64,000 nucleotides of DNA from Actinoalloteichus fjordicus (lineage in GTDB: Bacteria; Actinomycetota; Actinomycetes; Mycobacteriales; Pseudonocardiaceae): positions 4,242,249 through 4,306,248 of the forward strand of contig NZ_CP016076.1 in the NCBI RefSeq assembly GCF_001941625.1, given 5' to 3'. Each line of letters opens with the position of its first letter. Position 1 is the stretch's first letter. The position numbers and the translations under genes were made by a program. Shown here in pieces: positions 9,200 through 42,268 of the stretch. A model generated the notes under the pieces. That model saw only the letters and a program-made list of their open reading frames with translations. It was not told where the DNA came from and did no database searches.

Positions 9200-9590
9200 G
9201 AGCGCCTCCCTCCTCGGGTCGGGCCATGCTCACACGGTCGACGTCAGACCCGTGTACACCTCGGGTCCGGCCTGCGATCCCGCCCGAGCGGTGATCCCCG
9301 CCCGGGACCGCCGAGCCGGACCGCCCGTCGAGTCGACGGGCTGACCGGTCCGCTTCGGCGCCGCCGTGCCACGTCGGCGGACGCGGTCCACACCGGACGA
9401 GTGCACAGTGGCCAGTGCGGCGCGGCAGCGCCCGGATGCGGCCGACCGCCGCAACATCCGGTGCGGGCAGGCAGGTCCGGCCGCTCCCGGCCGCTGGGTA
9501 ACATTTACTAAAAGGTGTTTCACGAGGCCTTCCGCCGCCCGCACCCCGCCGGTTGACTCCGGAGCGAGACCACCGCTCGAAAGGACTCCG
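9200..9590. other. Divergent intergenic region hydrolase / GH13
   Basis: Contains a perfect 8-bp palindrome GTGTACAC at 9252-9259 near the hydrolase start, and an AT-rich island around 9498-9525 (TAACATTTACTAAAAGG) about 70 bases before the glucosidase. The island is the likely glucosidase promoter and could hold the LacI operator, but no clear dyad was found in it. Confidence 0.4.
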
Positions 9591-11231
9591 ATGGCCAACG
9601 ACCTCGCCGTGACCGAGCCCAGCACCACCCCGGTCGGCACCCGACAGTGGTGGCACGACGCCGTGGTCTACCAGGTCTACTTCCGCAGCTTCGCCGACTC
9701 CGACGGCGACGGCATCGGCGACCTCCCCGGCATCCGCTCCCGACTGCCCTATCTGGTCGACCTCGGCGTGGACGCGCTGTGGATCACGCCGTTCTACGCC
9801 TCGCCGATGGCCGACGGCGGCTACGACGTGGCGGACTACCGCGCCGTCGATCCGACGGCGGGCACGCTCGACGACGCGGCGGAGCTGATCCGCGAGGCGC
9901 ACCGGCTGGACCTGCGCGTGATCGTCGACATCGTCCCCAACCACACCTCCGATGCGCATCGTTGGTTCGTCGAGGCGCTGGCCGCGCCGCCGAACTCCCC
10001 CGCCCGCGCTCGCTATCACTTCCGGCCCGGCCGAGGCGCGGGCGGCGAGCAACCGCCGAACGACTGGGAGTCGGTGTTCGGCGGACCGGCGTGGACGCGG
10101 CTGCCCGACGGCGACTGGTACCTGCACCTGTTCGCGCCGGAACAGCCCGACCTCAACTGGGATCTGCCCGAGGTACGCGAGGAGTTCCTGGACATCCTGC
10201 GGTTCTGGCTGGACCTCGGGGTGGACGGCTTCCGGGTCGACGTCGCCCACGGCCTGATCAAGGCCGACGGCCTGCCCGACGTCGGACACGACGACCACGT
10301 CCGGCTGCTCGGCGCGGCACCGCTGCCCTTCTTCGACCAGGACGGCGTGCACGAGGTCTATCGCGGCTGGCGGGAGGTGCTGGACTCCTATGACGGCCCG
10401 CGCATCGCCGTCGCCGAGGCGTGGACGCCCAGTGCAGAGCGCACCGCCCGCTATCTGGAGCCCGACGAACTGCATCAGGCCTTCAACTTCCACTATCTGC
10501 TCGCGGGCTGGTCGGCGCAGGCCCTGCGGACGGTCATCGACGACACCCTGACCTCGATGGCACCGCTGGGCGCCTCGGCGACCTGGGTGCTGGCCAATCA
10601 CGACGTGACGCGGACCGCGACCAGGCTCGGCGACGGTCCGGAAGGCCTGCGCCGCGCCCGTGCCGCCGCGATGCTCATGCTGGCCCTGCCCGGCTCCGCC
10701 TACGTGTACCAGGGCGAGGAACTCGGCCTTCCCGAGGTGCTCGACCTGCCAGAGGAGTCCCTGCAGGACCCGACCTGGGAACGCTCCGGACACACCGATC
10801 GGGGCCGCGACGGCTGTCGAGTCCCGCTGCCATGGAGCACCGAGGGCGACTCGCTCGGCTTCAGCCCGGCGGACTCGGCGGTGTCCTGGCTTCCGCAGCC
10901 TGCGGGCTGGGCGGAGTTGAGCGTGGCGGCGCAGGAGACCGATCCGCATTCGACCCTGGAGCTGTATCGACAGGCGCTACGGGTACGCCGCGAACACCCC
11001 GCCCTCGGCGCGGGCGAGGCGGTGGAGTGGGCGGCGGCTCCCGCCGACGTCCTACGGCTGCTCCGCCGGGACGCCGCCACCGGCCGGGCGGTGACGGTCG
11101 TGGCCAATCTCGGCGACCACAGCGTGCGGCTGCCCGGTCTGCACACCGTGCTGCTCGCCTCGGGACGCTACGGAGTCGACGGCGACGACCTCCTGCTCCC
11201 GCCCGACACGACCGTGTGGTGGGAGTGCTGA
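9591..11231 (+). CDS. GH13 alpha-glucosidase (oligo-1,6-glucosidase / trehalose-type)
   Basis: Cytoplasmic hydrolase for alpha-linked glucose oligomers. The 546-residue protein starts WWHDAVVYQVYFRSFADS, the classical opening of GH13 glucosidases. Conserved regions follow in order: DIVPNHTSD, GFRVDVAHG with nucleophile Asp217, AVAEAW with the acid/base Glu, and LANHDVTR with the stabilising Asp. A beta-rich domain C ends at WWEC. No signal peptide. The start at 9591 has AAGGA upstream. The stop codon overlaps the first base of a MITE-like repeat. A LacI regulator faces it from downstream and probably controls it. Confidence 0.92.
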   Translation: MANDLAVTEPSTTPVGTRQWWHDAVVYQVYFRSFADSDGDGIGDLPGIRSRLPYLVDLGVDALWITPFYASPMADGGYDVADYRAVDPTAGTLDDAAELIREAHRLDLRVIVDIVPNHTSDAHRWFVEALAAPPNSPARARYHFRPGRGAGGEQPPNDWESVFGGPAWTRLPDGDWYLHLFAPEQPDLNWDLPEVREEFLDILRFWLDLGVDGFRVDVAHGLIKADGLPDVGHDDHVRLLGAAPLPFFDQDGVHEVYRGWREVLDSYDGPRIAVAEAWTPSAERTARYLEPDELHQAFNFHYLLAGWSAQALRTVIDDTLTSMAPLGASATWVLANHDVTRTATRLGDGPEGLRRARAAAMLMLALPGSAYVYQGEELGLPEVLDLPEESLQDPTWERSGHTDRGRDGCRVPLPWSTEGDSLGFSPADSAVSWLPQPAGWAELSVAAQETDPHSTLELYRQALRVRREHPALGAGEAVEWAAAPADVLRLLRRDAATGRAVTVVANLGDHSVRLPGLHTVLLASGRYGVDGDDLLLPPDTTVWWEC

Positions 11232-33534: not shown

Positions 33535-33685
33535 GAGCTACCGTCGAGAGGTCGTCTCTCCACAAGAGACGAATGCGTCCTGCCGTTCGATGGGGGAAGC
33601 CGGTGTGAGTCCGGCACTGTCCCGCAGCCGTGAGCACCCGTGTTCCTCGGGTGTCAGTCGGAATGCCCGTCGTGCGGTACTGCTC
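33535..33685 (+). ncRNA. Cobalamin riboswitch
   Basis: Contains the diagnostic B12-box region: GGGGGAAGCCGGTG, then AGTCCGGCACTGTCCCGCA and GCCGTGAG at 33592-33635, followed by a stem-loop ending in GTGTCAGTCGGAATGCCCG, the usual 3' part of the aptamer. A closing P1-like helix can form between GAGC-TACCG (33535-33543) and CGGTA-CT-GCTC (33675-33685). Together these are far beyond chance. It represses in the presence of adenosyl- or methylcobalamin, so the three genes behind it are expected to be made when B12 is scarce. Confidence 0.93.
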
Positions 33686-33718
33686 GGCTCCTCTGTCGTG
33701 GTGTGCAGCGCGGAGCTT

Positions 33719-33737
33719 CGGAGCCTGCGCGGCTCCG
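33719..33737 (+). promoter_or_regulatory. Expression-platform hairpin of the riboswitch
   Basis: CGGAGCC (33719-33725) and GGCTCCG (33731-33737) form a 7-bp stem with loop TGCGC between the aptamer and the start codon. Without a T-tract it may act on translation or Rho-dependent termination rather than as an intrinsic terminator. Confidence 0.5.
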
Positions 33738-33775
33738 GACTGCGGTCTGCCCGAACCGAAGGGAACTCACAGGCC

Positions 33776-34360
33776 ATGTCCTTGAGCCTCTCCGTCCGGC
33801 GTCGTCTCTTAACCGGCCTCTTCGCAGGTTCTCTGCTTCTGTTCGGCGGCACGGCCGTCGCGGCCGTCCCGGCCGCCGCGCCCACCGCCGACGACTCGGT
33901 CACCGTCGCCTGGACCGACGGTCCCTGCACCGGGACGACCGGCGTCACGGTGGTCGTCGACTTCACCGGACACGCGGGCGGCGACGTCGTCCGGCGGTGC
34001 ACCGACGGCGACCCGGCGACCGCGTTCGCCGCGCTGACCGATGTGGACGTCGCGCCGGAGCACGGCATCGGACAGGGCGAGACCGGCCCCTACCAGTACC
34101 TGTGCCGGATCGACGGCCTGCCCTCGGCCACCGCCGACGCGTGCGACGGTTTCCTGCCCAACGCGCCGTACTGGGCGTTCTGGGTGCCCGACGTGGCCGG
34201 CGACGCGTGGGGTTATGCGGATGAGGGCGTGGACACCTACGACCCGCCGTTGGGCGACGTCCTCGGCTTCTCCTTCGGGGCGGGCACCGTGGCCGACCCG
34301 AACGAGATGAGCCTGACGCTGGACGAGGCACTCGACCCGAACTGGACGCCGACCAGCTGA
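33776..34360 (+). CDS. Secreted beta-type domain protein, B12-regulated (DUF4430-like)
   Basis: A 194-residue protein with a signal peptide (residues 1 to about 30, ending AVAAVPAA) and no anchor, hence secreted. The mature domain has [21 protein letters not shown], then [32 protein letters not shown] and LGFSFGAG, with four cysteines that can form disulphides. The same order occurs in the third gene of the operon, so the two are paralogues. DUF4430/beta domains of this sort accompany cobalamin-binding alpha6/alpha6 domains in transcobalamin-like proteins; that assignment is inferred. ATG 33776 is the first gene behind the riboswitch, and its stop overlaps the next start (TGATG). Confidence 0.8.
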
Positions 34361-35946
34361 TGCTCAAGCCTCTCCTCGGCCTGACGGCGGGAGCGCTGCT
34401 CCTCGCCTCGACGGTCGTTCCCTCTGCCGCCTCGGCAGACCCGGCGATCATCGCCGCGTCGGCCGAGGCGGGCACGGCGGCCGAGTTCCTGGAACGGGAG
34501 TTCGTCCGACTCGACTACGTCTATCCCAGCGCCACCCCTGGTTCCCCCGACGCGGGCCTGCAGGCGGATGCGCTGCTCGGCCTGCATGCGGCGGGCCGCA
34601 CCGGGACGACCTTCGATCTCGGCGTCCGCGCGCTGCGCGAGATGTTCTACAACGGCAACCTCGCCAACTCCGGTGTTCTCGCGAAACGACTGATGGTCGC
34701 CCTGCGGGCCGGGGTCGACCCGGCGGACTGGGGCGTCGACTCCAACGGTGTCCCGATCGACCTGGTGGACCGGCTCACCGCGACGCTCGACGTCGACGGT
34801 CGGTACCGCAACCTGAACGCGGGTGATTACGACCCGCGACGAGACCTGTCGAACACCTTCTCCCAGGCGCTGGCGTTGATCGCCATGGACGAGCACGCCC
34901 GGCACACCGGCACGCCGATCGATCAGCGAGCGAGCATCGACTACCTGGTGCGGCAACAGTGCCCCAGCGGCGGCTTCCGCGCGAACCCCCCGCCCGAGAA
35001 CGTCGGCTCGACCTGCGCGGGCAGCGACGACGCGCTGGTCAGCGTCGACAACACGGCGATGGCCGTCTGGGCGCTGGCCGAGGTCGGCGGTAACGCGGGC
35101 GCCCTGGATCGGGGCGTGCGCTGGCTGCTCGACCGGCAGTACCACGACGGCGCCTTCGGCTTCGACTCCTCCACGCCGGAGCTGATCGAGCAGACCCGCA
35201 ACGCCAACAGCACCGGTCTCGCCGCCCTCGCGCTCACCGTCGCGGACCAGACGGGGCCCGCCGGACGCGCGGGCGGCTGGCTGACCTCGATCCAGCTCCG
35301 TGCCGGTGTCGACCCCGGCGCCATGACCGGCGCGGTCTCCTACTCGGCGCGCGACTACCTGGACGTCCAGACCGACGGGCCGCTGTACTGGAGCCGCGCG
35401 GGCAACCAGGACCGGCTGCGGCGGGCGACCGCGCAGGCGCTGCTCGGGCTGTCGGCGACACCACCCGTCGAGCCGCCCGAGCCGCCGACGACCACGCCGC
35501 CGCCCGAGCCGCCCGACGGCAGTCCCGGCGAGCCGGGACAACCGGGTCAGCCCGGTCAGCCCGGCCTTCCCGGTCAGCCGGGACAACCGGGGCTTCCCGG
35601 GCAGCCCGGGTTACCTGGCGAGCCGGGGTATCCCGGCCAGTCGGGGCTCGGCGGTGATCCGGGCAGTCCCGGTCTCGACGGCGCGCAGGGCGAGGCGGGC
35701 GAGAATCCCGACGCCGTCGATCAGACCCCTCGGGTCGATCCTCCCTTGGCGGTCGCCCAGGAGCCTCGGGCGGTGGACAGGCCGGCCGAGCAGACGGCCG
35801 CGCCTGCGACCTCGTTGGCATTGGTCGGCGACTTCCTGCGCAGTCCCGTCGGGCTGGCGTCCTCGGCGGGCGTGGCGCTGCTGCTGGCGGCGATCAGCTA
35901 CCTGCTGATCAGCAGGCCACGTCGACGGGGCGGAGTGCCGCGATGA
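34360..35946 (+). CDS. Transcobalamin-like alpha6/alpha6 protein with collagen-like stalk and membrane anchor
   Basis: A 528-residue surface protein, probably the B12-binding component. Residues 1-26 are a signal peptide. About 30-365 form repeated helical pairs of the terpene-cyclase/intrinsic-factor fold: [61 protein letters not shown] and [16 protein letters not shown]. The last two resemble the helix signatures of mammalian intrinsic factor and transcobalamin (from memory). A Pro-rich linker follows, then a collagen-like Gly-X-Y run at about 390-446, and a C-terminal membrane helix (about 492-515) with the basic tail [10 protein letters not shown]. It would display the domain outside the cell. 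Overlaps both neighbours. Confidence 0.85.
35515..35700 (+). repeat. Collagen-like Gly-X-Y coding repeat
   Basis: Encodes about 19 Gly-X-Y triplets, mostly GQP, GLP and GEP with occasional Tyr and Asp, inside the transcobalamin-like gene. At DNA level the units GGTCAGCCC and GGGCTTCCC recur, so the number of repeats may vary between strains. Confidence 0.85.
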
Positions 35947-36821
35947 GACTGACGCGTCTGCTGGGCACGGCGCTGTTCGCCGCCGCCGTCACCCTGGCCG
36001 CCCCGACGCCCGCCCCGGCCGCCGCGCAGGCCTGCACGGCGGAGACCGGCGTCGTGGTGGTCGTGGACTTCGGTTCGCTCGGGGGCACCGTGTCCCGCTG
36101 CGTCCCCGGCACGCCCGAGACGGGATACGCGGCGTTGCAGGAGGCAGGCTTCCGACTCGCGGGCACCGCGCACGACGGTGCCGGGTTCGTCTGCCGCATC
36201 GACGATCGGCCCGGCCCCGATCAGGAACCGTGCGACGACACGCCCTCCGGGGACGCCTACTGGTCGTACTGGATCGACGAGGGCGGCGGCAGCTGGTCGT
36301 ACAGCACACGGGGCGCGATGGCGTCCTATCCCGAGGCCGACCGCGTCGAGGGCTGGTCCTTCGGCGCGGGCGATCCACCGGGGATGACGGGTTCGGCGGC
36401 CAGGGCACGGTTCGCTCCGAGCGGACCAGGCGACGCACCGAATCCCGGCGATCCGGCCCCGCCCGCCGCGCCGGGGGATCCCGCGCCCGGCGGTTCGGCC
36501 GACCGGCCGCATCAGCCTGCGCAGCCCGCCGAGGGCGGTACGGCGCCCACGGACGGGGCCGCCACCGATCCCGAGAACCCGGCCGATCCCACCGAGCAGG
36601 ACGGCGACGAGCAGACCGAGAGCGACACCGAGGCGCCCGCGCTCGACGGGTCGGCGGGTCAGGACCCGTCCGTCGCGGCGGACGGCACCGAGCAGACCGC
36701 CCAGGACGCCACCGGGGCCGGCGGGGTGCCATGGGCGACGATCATCGCGTTCGCCGCGATCTGGGTGCTGGGCATCGGCGCCGGGATCATCGCCCGACGC
36801 CGCCGTCGCGCGGCCGAGTGA
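35943..36821 (+). CDS. Membrane-anchored beta-type domain protein, B12-regulated
   Basis: A 292-residue protein: signal peptide (1 to about 27, ending APAAA), one beta-type domain to about residue 155 with [48 protein letters not shown] and GWSFGAG, a long disordered Pro/Glu/Asp-rich spacer, and a C-terminal membrane helix ([19 protein letters not shown]) with an Arg-rich tail. The domain repeats the motif order of the first operon gene. The ATG overlaps the previous stop by 4 bases. It may cap the ligand bound by the alpha6/alpha6 protein, by analogy to the two-domain transcobalamins; this is inference. Confidence 0.8.
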
Positions 36822-36971: not shown

Positions 36972-37826
36972 TCACACGACGGCCGACCCGTTGAAGAGGA
37001 ACAGCACGATCGCCAGGGCGGCCGTCAGCACGGCGGCCCGGAAGGGTCGTCGGCTGTCCGGCGCAGCGGGCACCGCCGTCCCGGCGATCGCCACCGCCAC
37101 CGCCACCCCGGCGACGATCAGACTGGGCAGATCGATCCGCCCCGGCGTCCCCACCAGCAGCACGCCCACCGCGGCGAGCATCACCAGCGGCGTCAAGGTC
37201 CGACAGGCGGCCCGCCCGATGCGCTGTGGGAATCCCCGCACCCCTGTCGCCAGATCGCCCTCGATGTCGGGCAGTGCGTTGACCAGATGGGCGCCCACGC
37301 CGAGCAGGGCGGCCGTGACGACCGCCCACCACGCGGGCCAGGGCGCGCCGGGCAGCCCGAGCGTCACGAACGCGGGCAGCGTCCCGAAGCCCACGGCGTA
37401 GGTCAACGGGGAGGCGACGGTGCGCTTGAGACCGAGGTTGTAGGCCCAGCCCGCCGCCACCATGCCGAGCAGGTGCACCGAGCCAGCAAGGAGTCCGTTG
37501 GCCAGCGACAGCGGGACGCACACCAGCAGGGCCATCGCCGCGGCCACTCCGACGACGCGCGGCGAGAGCGCCCCGGCGGCCACCGGCTTGTCGCGACGAC
37601 CGGTGAGCACGTCCCGCCGGGCGTCCAGCGCGTCGTTGGACCAGCCGATCGAGAGCTGTCCGGCCAACACCGACGCGGCGACCAACGCCGACCCACCCGC
37701 TCCCCGACCGGTCGCCACGGCCAGCACCGTGGTGAACAGGGTCACCGCCACGGCGGGCTCGGGATGCGCACTGCCGAGCAACGCGCCGAGGCGGGCGGCC
37801 GGAGACGGCCGAGAGATCGGGGACAT
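36972..37826 (-). CDS. UbiA-type prenyltransferase
   Basis: A 284-residue membrane prenyltransferase with about eight helices. The two prenyl-diphosphate motifs are SNDALDARRD and the later DIEGDLATG; SIGWSNDALD and AAGWAYNLGLK are typical of the SCO7190-like subgroup. Such enzymes attach isoprenoid chains to phenols or quinones. No good Shine-Dalgarno was found; ATG 37826 gives MSPISRP, while GTG 37892 would add a TSPASP-repeat. It lies near a type III PKS, an ICMT-like methyltransferase and a FAD reductase and probably acts with them. Confidence 0.82.
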   Translation of the reverse strand: MSPISRPSPAARLGALLGSAHPEPAVAVTLFTTVLAVATGRGAGGSALVAASVLAGQLSIGWSNDALDARRDVLTGRRDKPVAAGALSPRVVGVAAAMALLVCVPLSLANGLLAGSVHLLGMVAAGWAYNLGLKRTVASPLTYAVGFGTLPAFVTLGLPGAPWPAWWAVVTAALLGVGAHLVNALPDIEGDLATGVRGFPQRIGRAACRTLTPLVMLAAVGVLLVGTPGRIDLPSLIVAGVAVAVAIAGTAVPAAPDSRRPFRAAVLTAALAIVLFLFNGSAVV

Positions 37827-38109
37827 CGGGGAGGCCGGAGACGTCGGAGAGGCCGGGGACGTCGACGGGGCGGAACGAGGTCGCAGGTCCACCAGCCCAG
37901 TGATACACGCGAAACGCCTCGGCCCGGGCGGTCCCACGCCGACCGGGCAGCGAGTTTCGCCGAGCTGGCGGCCAGATCCGACCCGGCCCAGCCGAGGAGA
38001 CCGGCGAGATCGGCACGCCGACGGCAGGCGGGTTCCGGCCGATGCCCGTTATCTTCGGAGGAAGATCCTCGAGAGATCGACCCCTGACCATCGACGACGG
38101 GTAGTCCGA
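37827..38109. other. Divergent spacer UbiA / ICMT-like gene
   Basis: Carries a run of imperfect GGAGACGTCGGAGAGGCCGGGGAC repeats (37827-37865, encoding the alternative Ser-Pro-rich N-terminus of the UbiA protein) and presumably both promoters. Nothing else recognised. Confidence 0.4.
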
Positions 38110-38625
38110 ATGCTGTGGTACATCCTGCTCGTCCTGGCCGTCGCGCTGGAACGGCTCGCCGAACTCGTCGTGGCACAGCGCAACGGTCGACGAAGTCTGG
38201 CACGGGGCGCGGTGGAGTCGGGTCGAGGCCACTATCCGGTGATGGTCGTCCTGCACACCGGGCTGCTCGTCGCGTGCCTGGCCGAGGCCGTCCTGCTCGA
38301 CCGGCCGTTCATCCCCGCCCTGGGCGTCCCGATGCTCGCGCTGGTGGTGCTGGCCCAGGCCCTGCGCTGGTGGTGCATCGTCTCGCTCGGCGACGCCTGG
38401 AACACCCGCGTCCTGGTCGTGCCCGGCGCCGAGCCCGTCCGCAGCGGCCCGTACCGCTTCCTTCGGCATCCCAACTACGTCGCGGTGGTCGTGGAGATCA
38501 TCGCGCTGCCGCTGGTGCACTCGGCCTGGTTGACGGCGCTGACCTTCACCGTGGCCAACGCCGCGCTGCTCACGGTCCGCATCCGCTGTGAGGACAGGGC
38601 GCTGGCGCAGCTCGCGACCGCATGA
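38110..38625 (+). CDS. ICMT-like membrane methyltransferase
   Basis: A 171-residue membrane protein of the isoprenylcysteine carboxyl methyltransferase family, which in actinobacteria methylates phenolic lipids rather than prenyl-cysteine. Four helices start at residue 2 (WYILLVLAVALERLAELVV). The SAM-binding C-terminal signature includes GPYRFLRHPNYVAVV. In Streptomyces the SrsB-type enzyme next to a type III PKS has this role. The stop overlaps the FAD reductase start by 4 bases, so the two are coupled. Confidence 0.85.
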   Translation: MLWYILLVLAVALERLAELVVAQRNGRRSLARGAVESGRGHYPVMVVLHTGLLVACLAEAVLLDRPFIPALGVPMLALVVLAQALRWWCIVSLGDAWNTRVLVVPGAEPVRSGPYRFLRHPNYVAVVVEIIALPLVHSAWLTALTFTVANAALLTVRIRCEDRALAQLATA

Positions 38626-39659
38626 GTCTCGACCACGATCTGCTGATCGCGGGCGGCGGGCCCGCCGGACTGGCCACCGCCCTGTACGCCGTGCGGGCAG
38701 GCCTGCGGCCGGTGGTGATCGAGCCGCGCGCGGCCCCGACGGACAAGGCCTGCGGCGAGGGGCTGCTGCCCGGTGCGGTGCGGGCGCTGACCGCGCTGGG
38801 CGTGCCGGTGCCCGGCCATCGGATCGACGGCATCAGCTACATCCAGGGCGATCGGCAGGTGCGGGCGGCCTTCCGCGCGGGCCCCGGTCTCGGGGTGCGG
38901 CGGACCGTGCTCCACGCGGCCTTGCATCAGGCGGTGCTGGACGCGGGCGTGCCGATCCTGCCCACCCGAGTCGACGAGGTGCGGGTGGACGCGACGGGGG
39001 TGACCGCGCTCGGCCCGGACCTGCGCGGCCGCTGGCTGGCAGCCGCCGACGGGCTGCACTCGCCGACGGCCCGCGCGCTCGGCCTCCGGACCGAGGACAC
39101 CCGCCCGGCCCGATTCGGACTGCGCAGGCACTATGCCGTCGCCCCGCCCTCCTCGGCCGTCGAGGTCCACTATGGACCGTTTGGCGAGGCCTATCTGACT
39201 CCGCTCGGGCCCGAACTCACCGGAGTCGCCCTGCTGACCAGCCGCCGAGCGCCGTTCGGTGAGCAGCTGGCCGAGTATCCCGCGCTGCTCGCACGATTCC
39301 CGGCGGCGTCGGCCGTCACCGCCGTGCGCGGCGCGGGACCGCTGCGACAACGGATGCGACGGCGGGTCGCGGGCGGCGGCCGGGTGCTGTTCGTCGGCGA
39401 CGCGGCAGGCTATGTGGACGCGCTGACCGGTGAGGGCATCACCTTGGCCATGGCGGGCGCGGCGGCACTGGTGGACAGCCTGCGCCGGGATCGGCCGCAG
39501 GAGTACGAACGCGCCTGGCTGCGCGCGACCCGACGCCACCGGCTGCTGACGGAGTGTCTGGTGCTGGCCAGGGCGAACCCGCTCACCGCAGGCCGGATCG
39601 TCCCGGCCGCCGAGCGCCTGCCCTCGGTGTTCGGCGCCGTCGTCAACGCACTGGCGTGA
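38622..39659 (+). CDS. FAD-dependent oxidoreductase (geranylgeranyl-reductase / hydroxylase family)
   Basis: A 345-residue flavoprotein. The Rossmann motif IAGGGPAGLATALYAV opens it, ADGLHSPTARALGL is the middle motif and FVGDAAGYVDALTGEGI the second FAD motif. The sequence fits the group shared by geranylgeranyl reductases and the SrsC-type hydroxylase that oxidises alkylresorcinols to quinones. Given the adjacent type III PKS and methyltransferase, hydroxylation of a phenolic lipid is the best guess; isoprenoid reduction is the alternative. Confidence 0.87.
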   Translation: MSLDHDLLIAGGGPAGLATALYAVRAGLRPVVIEPRAAPTDKACGEGLLPGAVRALTALGVPVPGHRIDGISYIQGDRQVRAAFRAGPGLGVRRTVLHAALHQAVLDAGVPILPTRVDEVRVDATGVTALGPDLRGRWLAAADGLHSPTARALGLRTEDTRPARFGLRRHYAVAPPSSAVEVHYGPFGEAYLTPLGPELTGVALLTSRRAPFGEQLAEYPALLARFPAASAVTAVRGAGPLRQRMRRRVAGGGRVLFVGDAAGYVDALTGEGITLAMAGAAALVDSLRRDRPQEYERAWLRATRRHRLLTECLVLARANPLTAGRIVPAAERLPSVFGAVVNALA

Positions 39660-39827
39660 GCGAGGTGGCGGGCCGTAGGCGCAGGGTCGAGCGGAACGTG
39701 ACCGCAGTGTTGTCCACAGAGGACGAATCGATCGGTGCGTTCCCTGCACAGAAGTCAGGTCGCGAGTCCGCCTACCATGGAGCATCACAGATGAATAACG
39801 CCCGAGCTGCGCCGCAGGTGGCGAAGG
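39660..39827. other. Upstream flank of the CRISPR array
   Basis: About 170 bases between the FAD gene and the first CRISPR repeat, less GC-rich than its surroundings (e.g. AGCATCACAGATGAATAACG at 39781). It may contain the leader, but orientation is not fixed by this alone. Confidence 0.4.
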
Positions 39828-40038
39828 GCAAGCCCCGCGCAGGCGGGGGTGGTCCGACCATCGCGGAGCGGTCGTCGCAGGTCCGGGTGTAAGCCCCGCG
39901 CAAGCGGGGGTGGTCCGGGCAAGGACGCGCAGCTGTCGTGCAACCGTGCGTAAGCCCCGCGCAAGCGGGGGTGGTCCACCGCCGAGGCTGATCTCCGACA
40001 GCAGAGTTGCGTAAGCCCCGCGCAAGCGGGGATGGCCC
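39828..40038. CRISPR. Orphan CRISPR array, type I-E-like, 4 repeats
   Basis: Four 28-base repeats at 39828-39855, 39889-39916, 39950-39977 and 40011-40038 are separated by three unique spacers of exactly 33 bases. The repeat has a CCCCGC-GCAA-GCGGGG hairpin and ends GGTGGTCC, as in actinobacterial type I-E repeats. Repeats 2 and 3 are identical; repeat 1 differs at two positions and repeat 4 at two, so both ends have decayed. No cas gene lies in the window. Confidence 0.93.
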
Positions 40039-40268
40039 GATGTCAGCCGGGATGGTGGGCAGTTCGTCGGGGTGGGCCGCACCAGGAGGCAGAGGACTTC
40101 GACCAACTCACTCCGGCAAGGTCAAGAGCCTTCGCAAGCCGGAACGCCCCGCCCGCCCGTCGGCGCCCCGGCGAAGCAGGTCTCCGGCACGCGGCCGAGA
40201 TGGGCCGGACCACCAACGGACGGCGTCGGGCTTCTCTGCCCGGCCAGCCTGCCCCGGCGGTTCGGCGT
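40039..40268. other. Flank between CRISPR array and PKS gene
   Basis: About 230 bases downstream of the last repeat with no gene. No further repeat remnants were found at the 61-base period. Confidence 0.4.
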
Positions 40269-41756
40269 TCACCAGCGCAGCAGCACGAGTTCCGCGCAGA
40301 AGCCGGGGCCCATCGCGAGCAGCAGGCCCGGTGTCCCGGCGGGCGGGCGGGGTTGGGCGAGGGTTCTTCGCAGCACGTCGAGGACCGAGGCCGAGGAGAG
40401 GTTGCCCAGGGCCGACAGCGACTCCCGGGTGTGCGCCAGCGCGGTGGCGGGCAGTGCGAGCGAATCGGTGACGGCGTCGATGACCTTCGGCCCGCCCGGA
40501 TGGCAGATCCACGTCCCGACGTCCTCGGCGACCAGGCCGTGATCGGCGAGGAAGCCGACGACGTCCTTGCTGAGGAACTCGCGCGCGATGGTCGGGACGT
40601 CGGCGGAGAGCACCAGACGGAAGCCGCTGGCGCCGATGTCCCAGCCCATGACGTCCTCGGTGTCGGGGTAGAGCCTGCTGCGGGTCGCGATGATCTCGGG
40701 CAGCGCACCGACGCCGTCGGCGGGACGAAGGCCTTCGACGGATCGTCGCTGCGGGACGAGACGCGCGGCGCCGACGTCGGACCCGCCGCCGTCGGCCGCC
40801 TCTGCGGGCGCCGCGTTGGACACGGCAGGCCCGGCAGTGCCCGGTAGGGCTGCGTGCCCCGCCTCGGCGCCGTCCCGCTCGGCGCTCCCCGGTCGGCTGC
40901 CGCTGCCGCTCATCCGAATGCCACCCGGCACGCCGGACCCGGACGTGTTCCCCACGTCCTCGCCGGGCGCCGCCCGCATCACCCCCGATGCGGTCACCCC
41001 CGATCGGGTGCGGCCCGTGGCTGCGGGCCCGGCCTCGGGACGGTCGTCGAACCCGGCAGCGCCTCGACGATTCCCCCCGAGGAGCACGACGGCGGCCGCG
41101 CCGTCGCCGAACAGGCTGCTGCCGACGACGTTGGCAACGGAGACGTCGTCGCGCTGCAGGGTCAGCGAGCACAGCTCCACGGCGAGCAGCACGGCCACCT
41201 GATCCGGCCAGGCCCGCAGGTAGTCGGCCACCCGCGCGATGCCCGCCGCGCCCGCGACGCAGCCGAGGCCGAACATCGGAATCCGTTTCACGTCCTCGCG
41301 GAGGCCCAGCCGCCGGGCCAGCCGAGCCTCCAGCGAGGGGACGGCGAGCCCCGTCACCGTCGTGGACACCACGAGGTCGACCTCGTCCGGGCTGATCCCC
41401 GCCTCCGCCAGCGCCCGGCGGACGGCCCGCTCGCCGAGTTCGAGCGCGGCCGTCAGATAGGCCTCGTTGGCCTCGGTGAAGCTCGCGAGTGCGCGCAGTT
41501 GTTCGAGTGGAACCGCGAAGTGCCGGGTGTCCACCCCGGCGTTGTCGGAGATCCGCTCCGCAGCCCGGCGCCTCGGGCTCCCGACCGGGAGGAACTCGTC
41601 GACGAAGGCCGCCAGGATCTCCTCCTGGCGGTAGACGTGCTCGGGCAGGGCCGTGGCGGCCGACGCGATCCGAGGCGGCGGGGCCGTCCGCAGCGCGTCG
41701 GCTCCTCGCCCCCGATCCTCGTCCTGACTGCGGCGCGTCCCCGTGACCTGAGACAT
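40269..41756 (-). CDS. Type III polyketide synthase with a large internal insertion
   Basis: Chalcone-synthase-like enzyme making phenolic or pyrone polyketides from acyl starter and malonyl-CoA. The catalytic triad is complete: Cys166 in FGLGCVAGAAG, His419 in WICHPGGPKV and Asn452 in LGNLSSASV. At 495 residues it is about 120 longer than the usual 350-390: residues 229-352, between VVLLGG and PEIIATRSRLYP, are a Gly/Ala/Ser/Pro-rich insertion with no family similarity that I recognise. ATG 41756 has GGAAGG 6 bases upstream. With the UbiA, ICMT-like and FAD genes it forms a probable phenolic-lipid or meroterpenoid-quinone pathway. Confidence 0.9.
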   Translation of the reverse strand: MSQVTGTRRSQDEDRGRGADALRTAPPPRIASAATALPEHVYRQEEILAAFVDEFLPVGSPRRRAAERISDNAGVDTRHFAVPLEQLRALASFTEANEAYLTAALELGERAVRRALAEAGISPDEVDLVVSTTVTGLAVPSLEARLARRLGLREDVKRIPMFGLGCVAGAAGIARVADYLRAWPDQVAVLLAVELCSLTLQRDDVSVANVVGSSLFGDGAAAVVLLGGNRRGAAGFDDRPEAGPAATGRTRSGVTASGVMRAAPGEDVGNTSGSGVPGGIRMSGSGSRPGSAERDGAEAGHAALPGTAGPAVSNAAPAEAADGGGSDVGAARLVPQRRSVEGLRPADGVGALPEIIATRSRLYPDTEDVMGWDIGASGFRLVLSADVPTIAREFLSKDVVGFLADHGLVAEDVGTWICHPGGPKVIDAVTDSLALPATALAHTRESLSALGNLSSASVLDVLRRTLAQPRPPAGTPGLLLAMGPGFCAELVLLRW

Positions 41757-42268
41757 CGACATCCTTCCCGCTCGCGTCGCCGATCCCCACCGGATCGAGA
41801 TCCGATGCGGCCTTCCGGTGCGATGGGCACCCGATCGTGTCCCGGTACCGCGCACCCGTCCTCCGCCAACGGCGACGGACCGGCATCGACACGCCGAGCG
41901 CCGCCCACCGACGAGGTGAAAGGTGAACCGTCGACCTTCATCATCCATGGGTTCTCGGCGCGGGGCAGTCGTGAGCACGCTCGGATCGGCGGGACAGACG
42001 CTTGTGGGCGAAGCACGGTGGTGTCGGAACAGGGCCGACGTGGCGTGCGGTCGCCCGGAGGTTCGGGGATCGCCTGCCGGGCGACCCGCCCGCCCGGACA
42101 CGGTGCGTGACCGCTCTGGGCCCGCGTCATGCTGCGACAGCACGCCGCCGGGGCCCACGGTCGAGCGATCAGCGGCGACCCGTGTCCCGACCGCGCCGCG
42201 CGGGATGATCTCGTGAGCATCCGACGCACCGACCGGAGTGCGCGACTCGGGAGCAGGAGAGGCGGGCT
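41757..42268. other. Divergent region PKS / CobW, nothing recognised
   Basis: Five hundred bases containing both promoters. The frames open here continue the PKS frame upstream of its ribosome binding site and are not supported as coding. No clear operator. Confidence 0.35.

Follow-up and report, generated by a model that had tools for sequence, protein, structure and literature searches.

What does a cobalamin riboswitch govern when the genes behind it encode surface proteins and no permease? This question is raised by a three-gene operon of the actinomycete Actinoalloteichus fjordicus (Pseudonocardiaceae), which lies within the 64,000 nucleotides analysed here and called the window (assembly GCF_001941625.1, contig NZ_CP016076.1, positions 4,242,249 to 4,306,248 of the forward strand). 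Two of its products carry a small beta domain and the third an alpha-helical toroid, and they resemble in this the animal vitamin B12 carriers intrinsic factor, haptocorrin and transcobalamin, which combine a six-hairpin toroid (the alpha domain) with a small beta domain and whose beta domain is linked to the bacterial one through the family DUF4430. Sequence comparisons and gene context suggest that the operon encodes a transcobalamin-like trap for B12 (corrinoid) at the cell surface, split over several polypeptides, that would feed an energy-coupling factor (ECF) importer, and we put the probability of this reading at roughly three in four. An original prediction, made from the letters of the window, had proposed a Gram-positive device for surface B12 capture with the parts of transcobalamin divided among separate chains. 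Its overall idea is well supported by the genomic context described below, namely riboswitches, neighbouring importer genes and gene fusions; its comparison of the toroid with the animal alpha domain is the weaker part.

The features of the operon are collected in Table 1. The riboswitch is the only match at gathering level to any Rfam family across the 64-kb window, and the two further genomes examined from this genus (loci L026 and L027) have the same cobalamin riboswitch and the same order of three genes. Gene 1 begins at 33776, the longer open reading frame (ORF) from 33533 crossing the aptamer. It overlaps gene 2 by one base (TGATG), and gene 2 overlaps gene 3 by four (ATGA). Hidden Markov models (HMMs) of the two domain families place the beta domains at residues 49-178 of the gene 1 product and 29-149 of the gene 3 product, and the toroid at residues 33-372 of the gene 2 product. 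The Gly-X-Y stretch that follows the toroid (residues 387-445) matches the Pfam family Collagen (PF01391) with 34.6 bits against a cut-off of 27.2 (E value 1.6e-8); such a stalk is present in three of the 117 toroid proteins examined, all of them from the window's genus. Signal peptides and C-terminal helices were judged by eye from the sequence and not by a prediction program. The original prediction of a B12 riboswitch ahead of three overlapping genes, which were taken to encode a secreted beta-type protein, a toroid tethered by a collagen-like stalk and a second, anchored beta-type protein, is borne out by the Rfam match, the stop-start overlaps, the ORFs, the HMMs and the Collagen match.

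Table 1. Coordinates (window numbering) of the riboswitch region and of the three genes of the operon
Feature	Position	Strand	Remarks
Cobalamin riboswitch aptamer, RF00174	33532-33688	+	cmscan 42.3 bits, gathering cut-off 31.5, E 2.6e-7
Hairpin with loop TCGTGG	33687-33716	+	directly 3' of the aptamer; possible expression-platform element
Gene 1, secreted beta-domain protein, 194 aa	33776-34360	+	signal peptide, no C-terminal helix; beta domain 33920-34309
Gene 2, toroid protein, 528 aa	34360-35946	+	signal peptide; toroid 34456-35475; collagen-like stalk 35518-35700; C-terminal hydrophobic membrane helix ~35848-35919, then basic tail
Gene 3, membrane-anchored beta-domain protein, 292 aa	35943-36821	+	signal peptide; beta domain 36027-36389; Pro-rich linker; C-terminal helix ~36726-36794 and basic tail

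In the Pfam search of the three products, gene 2 matched Collagen and, below threshold, toroid families only; genes 1 and 3 had no match. The nearest named relatives are two NCBIfam families whose names carry no function. Gene 2 belongs by sequence with SCO2321 (73.5 bits, E 1.5e-20) and genes 1 and 3 with SCO2322 (E 4.5e-4 and 1.5e-4; 20.6 and 22.1 bits), but all three lie below the curated cut-offs, which are 300 bits for the former and 85 bits for the latter. The window's genus differs from these families in its additional collagen-like stalk and in having its ECF genes elsewhere in the genome.

The original prediction had also stated that the window holds no ECF or BtuCD permease. HMMs of the T and S components matched nothing in its six frames and no permease was seen among its ORFs, not all of which were searched against Pfam; the missing importer is found elsewhere in the same genome. 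The T, A and S genes of an ECF importer lie there in a single run on the minus strand (L038:7281-10860, at ~2.95 Mb of G000:C1), 1.3 Mb from the operon of the window and behind an RF00174 element of their own (41.6 bits). The T protein belongs to the CbiQ family (PF02361, 36.4 bits, cut-off 25), the S protein to ECF_trnsprt (PF12822, 35.1 bits, cut-off 30.7), and the A protein matches ABC_tran in two stretches. In Amycolatopsis antarctica (L040) the two sets stand together, in the order riboswitch, beta, toroid, beta, T, A, S. Its surface proteins share 71.7, 57.4 and 48.5% identity with the products of genes 1, 2 and 3, and its S, A and T proteins share 73.7, 71.2 and 68.3% with those of the distant ECF operon. 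This orthology to both operons indicates that the genome of the window carries the same system as a pair of operons, each under a riboswitch. A distance of at least 270 kb separates the S gene from the surface genes in each of the three genomes of the genus. A further set of genes in the same genome (L039:6226-9785, at ~5.066-5.070 Mb of G000:C1) encodes a Peripla_BP_2 protein, a FecCD permease and an ATPase of the ATP-binding cassette type, with a sub-threshold cobalamin element ahead (27.5 bits); it is possibly a second corrinoid importer, of the BtuFCD-like route.

The association of the toroid with riboswitches and ECF genes extends far beyond this genus. A search of the toroid alignment against the genomes of 84,980 species yielded 285 confirmed relatives, of which the best 80 loci (L040-L119), chosen on toroid sequence alone, were gene-called and then annotated with HMMs built from relatives of the window. 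Riboswitches were located with a model, R1, made from nine sequences that include that of the window and none from the 80 loci, although some species may overlap; it gave 124 matches at E ≤0.05 in 1.2 Mb. In 74 of the 80 loci, and in 62 of the 64 that are longer than 15 kb, a toroid operon has a match no more than 600 bases ahead of its first gene. Six-frame searches of these 64 longer loci found the beta domain and the T, A and S components in 58 each, and all four together in 57. The same arrangement, with surface genes followed by T, A and S and with RF00174 upstream, occurs in five other loci (L028, L029, L030, L031 and L033). The toroid/beta family is widespread in Actinomycetota.

The relationship of the beta domain was approached by comparing profiles. 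A profile of 42 beta domains of the window type (A5) matches 28 DUF4430 domains with an hhalign E value of 1.1e-5, a probability of 82% and a score of 35.2, the highest of 40 column shuffles scoring 16.7. Omission of two mis-extracted rows (L127 and L142) from the DUF4430 set had moved the E value from 9e-6 to 1.1e-5; five of the 40 shuffles gave no score with the first set, and all 40 were scored with the mended one. The beta domains of the animal B12 carriers match the same DUF4430 set at E 1.3e-9. Because both groups match one and the same set, the beta domain of the window type is most likely a distant member of DUF4430, to which the beta domain of transcobalamin belongs. Searched singly among the 42 sequences, the beta domain of gene 3 matches the local DUF4430 profile (which at that stage held the two mis-extracted rows) at E 9.2e-5, and that of gene 1 only at E 0.24. 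The beta profile matched nothing in the PDB at E 10.

Canonical DUF4430 domains also occur beside members of the toroid family. Of 198 genomes sampled from the phylum, 34 have a match to Pfam DUF4430 and 56 one to the SCO2321 family, and in 14 genomes the two matches stand on the same contig within ~6 kb (the lists were compared by eye). In most of these 14 loci, which with two others were examined as L150-L165, ECF genes and the toroid come after the DUF4430 gene; the T model found nothing in L154, L157, L158 and L164. RF00174 reaches gathering level in 14 of the 16 loci, several of which have ~3 kb between riboswitch and DUF4430. In L150 the RF00174 match is on the opposite strand, and the operon's own element is a match of R1.

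The alpha part of the comparison rests on the toroids. A profile of 56 of them (A4) aligns colinearly with the alpha domains of four animal carriers over 172 columns (hhalign E 3.4e-5, probability 72%), with a score of 41.8 against a maximum of 17.0 among 40 shuffles, all of which lie below it. Eleven squalene cyclase domains compared with the same animal set scored 16.3 (E 0.23), whereas five random samples of 11 toroids scored 30.9-38.6; one of the 11 cyclase rows (L184) is mis-extracted, and the rows are more alike than the toroids, which makes for a weaker profile. Since the cyclases fail to match the animal alpha domains, the match of the toroids exceeds what mere membership of the toroid superfamily confers. 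D230, N281 and Q359 (P0002 numbering), which belong to the residues that the 56 toroids share without exception, are placed by hhalign opposite D153, D204 and Q252 of intrinsic factor (numbering of the 2pmv chain), the glutamine pair under a relaxed setting only. These three, with S38, T70, H73 and Y115, we take to be B12 contacts of intrinsic factor.

Several results weigh against our reading. The four contacts last named do not face invariant polar residues of the toroid, so that only three of the seven contacts do. The best matches of the toroid profile in the PDB are squalene-hopene cyclases (hmmsearch E 4.3e-27; 1.5e-26 in a second search, for which the best 60 of 78 matches were considered), neither intrinsic factor nor transcobalamin appears among the 47 PDB matches of the profile, and in hhalign squalene cyclases (E 2.8e-9) come closer to the toroids than the animal carriers do. 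The Pfam family Cobalamin_bind (PF01122, cut-off 25 bits) does not match gene 2 at E 1; it matches 13 of the 56 relatives at E ≤1, the best at E 3.8e-4, and L028 reaches 21.1 bits. Pfam DUF4430 (PF14478) matches neither the proteins of the window nor any of the 42 beta domains at E 1, while the beta domain of L030 reaches E 0.009 (16.8 bits, cut-off 23.8). Compared directly with the four animal beta domains, A5 gives a weak match (hhalign E 0.086), though one above all 40 shuffles, and the hhalign probabilities of the two key matches are moderate. As regards context, the selection of the 80 best loci among 285 relatives favours the closer ones. Six of the 80 have no upstream match of R1 at E ≤0.05, and five of the 64 longer loci gave no T, A or S match in any of six frames. 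Two further loci, L032 and L034, encode beta-toroid proteins with neither a riboswitch at gathering level nor ECF genes called within ~19.5 kb.

The matches to cyclases would also suit a toroid that is a secreted enzyme, terpene-cyclase-like or corrinoid-modifying, acting on a corrinoid or an envelope substrate with the beta domains as accessories. Besides heading the PDB matches, the squalene-hopene cyclases are represented by the Pfam family SQHop_cyclase_C in 48 of the 56 relatives (E ≤1), and SQHop_cyclase_C and Prenyltrans occur below their cut-offs in gene 2. However, the catalytic motif of class II terpene cyclases, DxDD, does not occur in the toroid of the window and is found in six of the 56 relatives, at scattered positions. 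Moreover, the proteins are secreted and anchored, they are usually accompanied by a beta domain and an ECF importer, and it is the toroids that match the animal alpha domains and the squalene cyclase domains that do not. An enzyme thus appears unlikely. The resemblance to intrinsic factor and transcobalamin that had been claimed for the toroid at the outset finds support in the profile-profile match, which squalene cyclases do not give; Cobalamin_bind does not match the toroid protein of the window, and the PDB favours squalene-hopene cyclases. The profile search that had been proposed as a check, with Cobalamin_bind and DUF4430, therefore has a divided outcome, direct Pfam matches being absent and DUF4430 being reached by profile-profile comparison.

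Whether B12 itself is the ligand depends in part on what the host needs. At E 1e-3 the 7.1 Mb host genome gave no match to CbiC, CbiG or CbiJ, which we take to be corrin-ring enzymes; the B12-binding domain matches it at six places, five of them over the cut-off. Together these observations suggest that the host uses B12 and must import it; it probably does so. Two more cobalamin riboswitches of this genome (L036 and L037, at ~2.53 and ~2.54 Mb of G000:C1; 75.2 and 68.1 bits) precede genes that by eye resemble ribonucleotide reductase in one case and metE in the other.

A different cargo, such as cobalt, a cobalt chelate or corrinoid precursors like cobinamide, would fit a T component that Pfam places in the CbiQ (cobalt transport) family. 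Nickel/cobalt transporters can also carry B12 riboswitches, according to the accessible text of PMC2667541, and ECF-CbrT transports cobinamide as well, according to that of PMC5997447. The S component, however, belongs to PF12822/ECF_trnsprt and is not of the CbiM type. Probable import of B12 argues against cobalt uptake for synthesis, for which a host in which CbiC, CbiG and CbiJ were not found would have no obvious need, and a metal ion should not require a large receptor in two parts. We regard such a cargo in place of B12 as improbable; cobinamide may be an additional ligand.

Natural fusions connect the components of the proposed B12 trap further. Toroid and beta domain form a single chain in the order of the animal carriers in L083 and L115, both from metagenome-assembled genomes of Nocardioidaceae. 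The beta domain precedes the toroid in L056, L067 and L090, and L028 has the order beta, toroid, toroid. In three other loci the S component and the toroid share one open frame (L157:5919-7871, L158:5553-7109 and L164:4917-6953), with the A gene adjacent and, on the same strand, a canonical DUF4430 match and a cobalamin riboswitch. A Pfam scan of two of these frames, L157 and L158, found both parts over their cut-offs in L158 (ECF-ribofla_trS 28.8 bits, cut-off 26.7, and a toroid family) and the toroid over, the S part below (ECF_trnsprt, E 3.9e-5), in L157. Through these fusions the toroid is physically joined with the beta domain in some loci and with the importer in others. The S-toroid frames would also fit surface proteins that do not bind B12 and instead aid assembly or docking at the ECF complex or the cell wall, and the collagen-like stalk does suggest spacing, but this is very hard to reconcile with beta domains that group with DUF4430, the family of the B12-binding beta domain of transcobalamin, with a secreted and unanchored gene 1 protein, which would make a poor docking factor, and with surface and importer operons that lie apart in the window's genus, both under cobalamin riboswitches in the window's genome.

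If the operon does encode a B12 trap, its operation could be pictured as follows. At low intracellular B12 the riboswitch would permit expression of the operon, and B12 would repress both operons through their riboswitches. The beta-domain proteins, one secreted and one anchored, would bind B12 first. The membrane-tethered toroid would then close over it, so that the corrinoid would be sandwiched as between the alpha and beta domains of transcobalamin or intrinsic factor, and the loaded trap would dock on the S component of the ECF importer and hand B12 over. Such an order of events has parallels in the animal carriers. In these the alpha domain closes after the beta domain has bound B12, and the two domains need B12 to associate (PMC11107200); the fragments of cleaved intrinsic factor still bind B12 together (PMC6257451); and the beta domain of transcobalamin binds B12 in isolation (PMC5599065), each as given in the accessible part of the paper. 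That animal fragments bind B12 jointly suggests that a split receptor would be workable.

The proposed system shares features with several known ones and coincides with none of them. L083 and L115 have the alpha-then-beta order of the animal carriers in one chain; in the window, unlike in these carriers, alpha and beta domains are separate proteins, a second beta protein is present, all but one of the three proteins are membrane-anchored, the genes are riboswitch-controlled and tied to an ECF importer, and Pfam does not assign PF01122. BtuG and BtuH of Bacteroides are also surface B12 binders that feed an importer, but they are outer-membrane lipoproteins of a Gram-negative cell with other folds, and their importer is the TonB-dependent BtuB. 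In the general description of ECF importers, capture of the vitamin is left to the membrane S component alone. The importer of our host follows the logic of T, A and S known from ECF-CbrT of Lactobacillus delbrueckii, with an S component of its own in PF12822. In ECF-CbrT, unlike in the system proposed here, the S component is described as itself the high-affinity binder, and the accessible text of PMC5997447 does not mention extracellular capture proteins. No mycobacterium is known to encode parts of an ECF-type transporter for cobamides, as stated in the accessible part of PMC12713380.

The novelty would lie in the combination of ECF-type B12 import with a receptor of the transcobalamin type. 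Searches for SCO2321/SCO2322, for DUF4430 with cobalamin and for transcobalamin with ECF, in which most of the subscription literature was not covered, found no description of such a system. If the reading is correct, a riboswitch-controlled extracellular receptor for an ECF importer represents a new layout, and the NCBIfam families SCO2321 and SCO2322 acquire a function. For the human B12 carriers, bacterial relatives would then be available for the beta domain and perhaps for the alpha domain too, and the origin of these carriers would become testable. More tentatively, and with less confidence than doubt, we suggest that Actinobacteria own a whole class of B12 importers in which a two-part receptor of the transcobalamin type, separate, fused or fused to the S component, serves an ECF importer, and that this receptor has a common origin with the animal carriers, whose alpha-beta order would already exist in bacterial fusions such as that of L083.

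The hairpin that directly follows the aptamer (Table 1) has counterparts in the homologous loci. Of 128 riboswitch matches, 108 have a TCGNGG motif in the 75 nt that follow them, as against 31 of 128 random stretches from the same loci (L040-L119), and the closing stems of the hairpin covary as complementary pairs. The hairpin is possibly a conserved expression platform of this group of cobalamin riboswitches; a kissing-loop role, weighed by eye, is not proposed here. The cobalamin riboswitch of Streptomyces griseus that is described in the accessible text of PMC8914203 is located on a different gene.

The beta-toroid proteins of L032 and L034 may represent a free-standing branch of the family. 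That of L032 (8533-10260) has an LPETG motif near its C-terminus, and its counterpart in L034 lies at 9273-10583.

Directly beside the three genes, the adjoining part of the window (36972-41762) encodes, according to Pfam, a UbiA prenyltransferase, an ICMT-type methyltransferase, an oxidoreductase dependent on flavin adenine dinucleotide and a type III polyketide synthase. It forms a small biosynthetic cluster with no evident link to B12, and inspection by eye found similar neighbours beside the operon in both other genomes of the genus.

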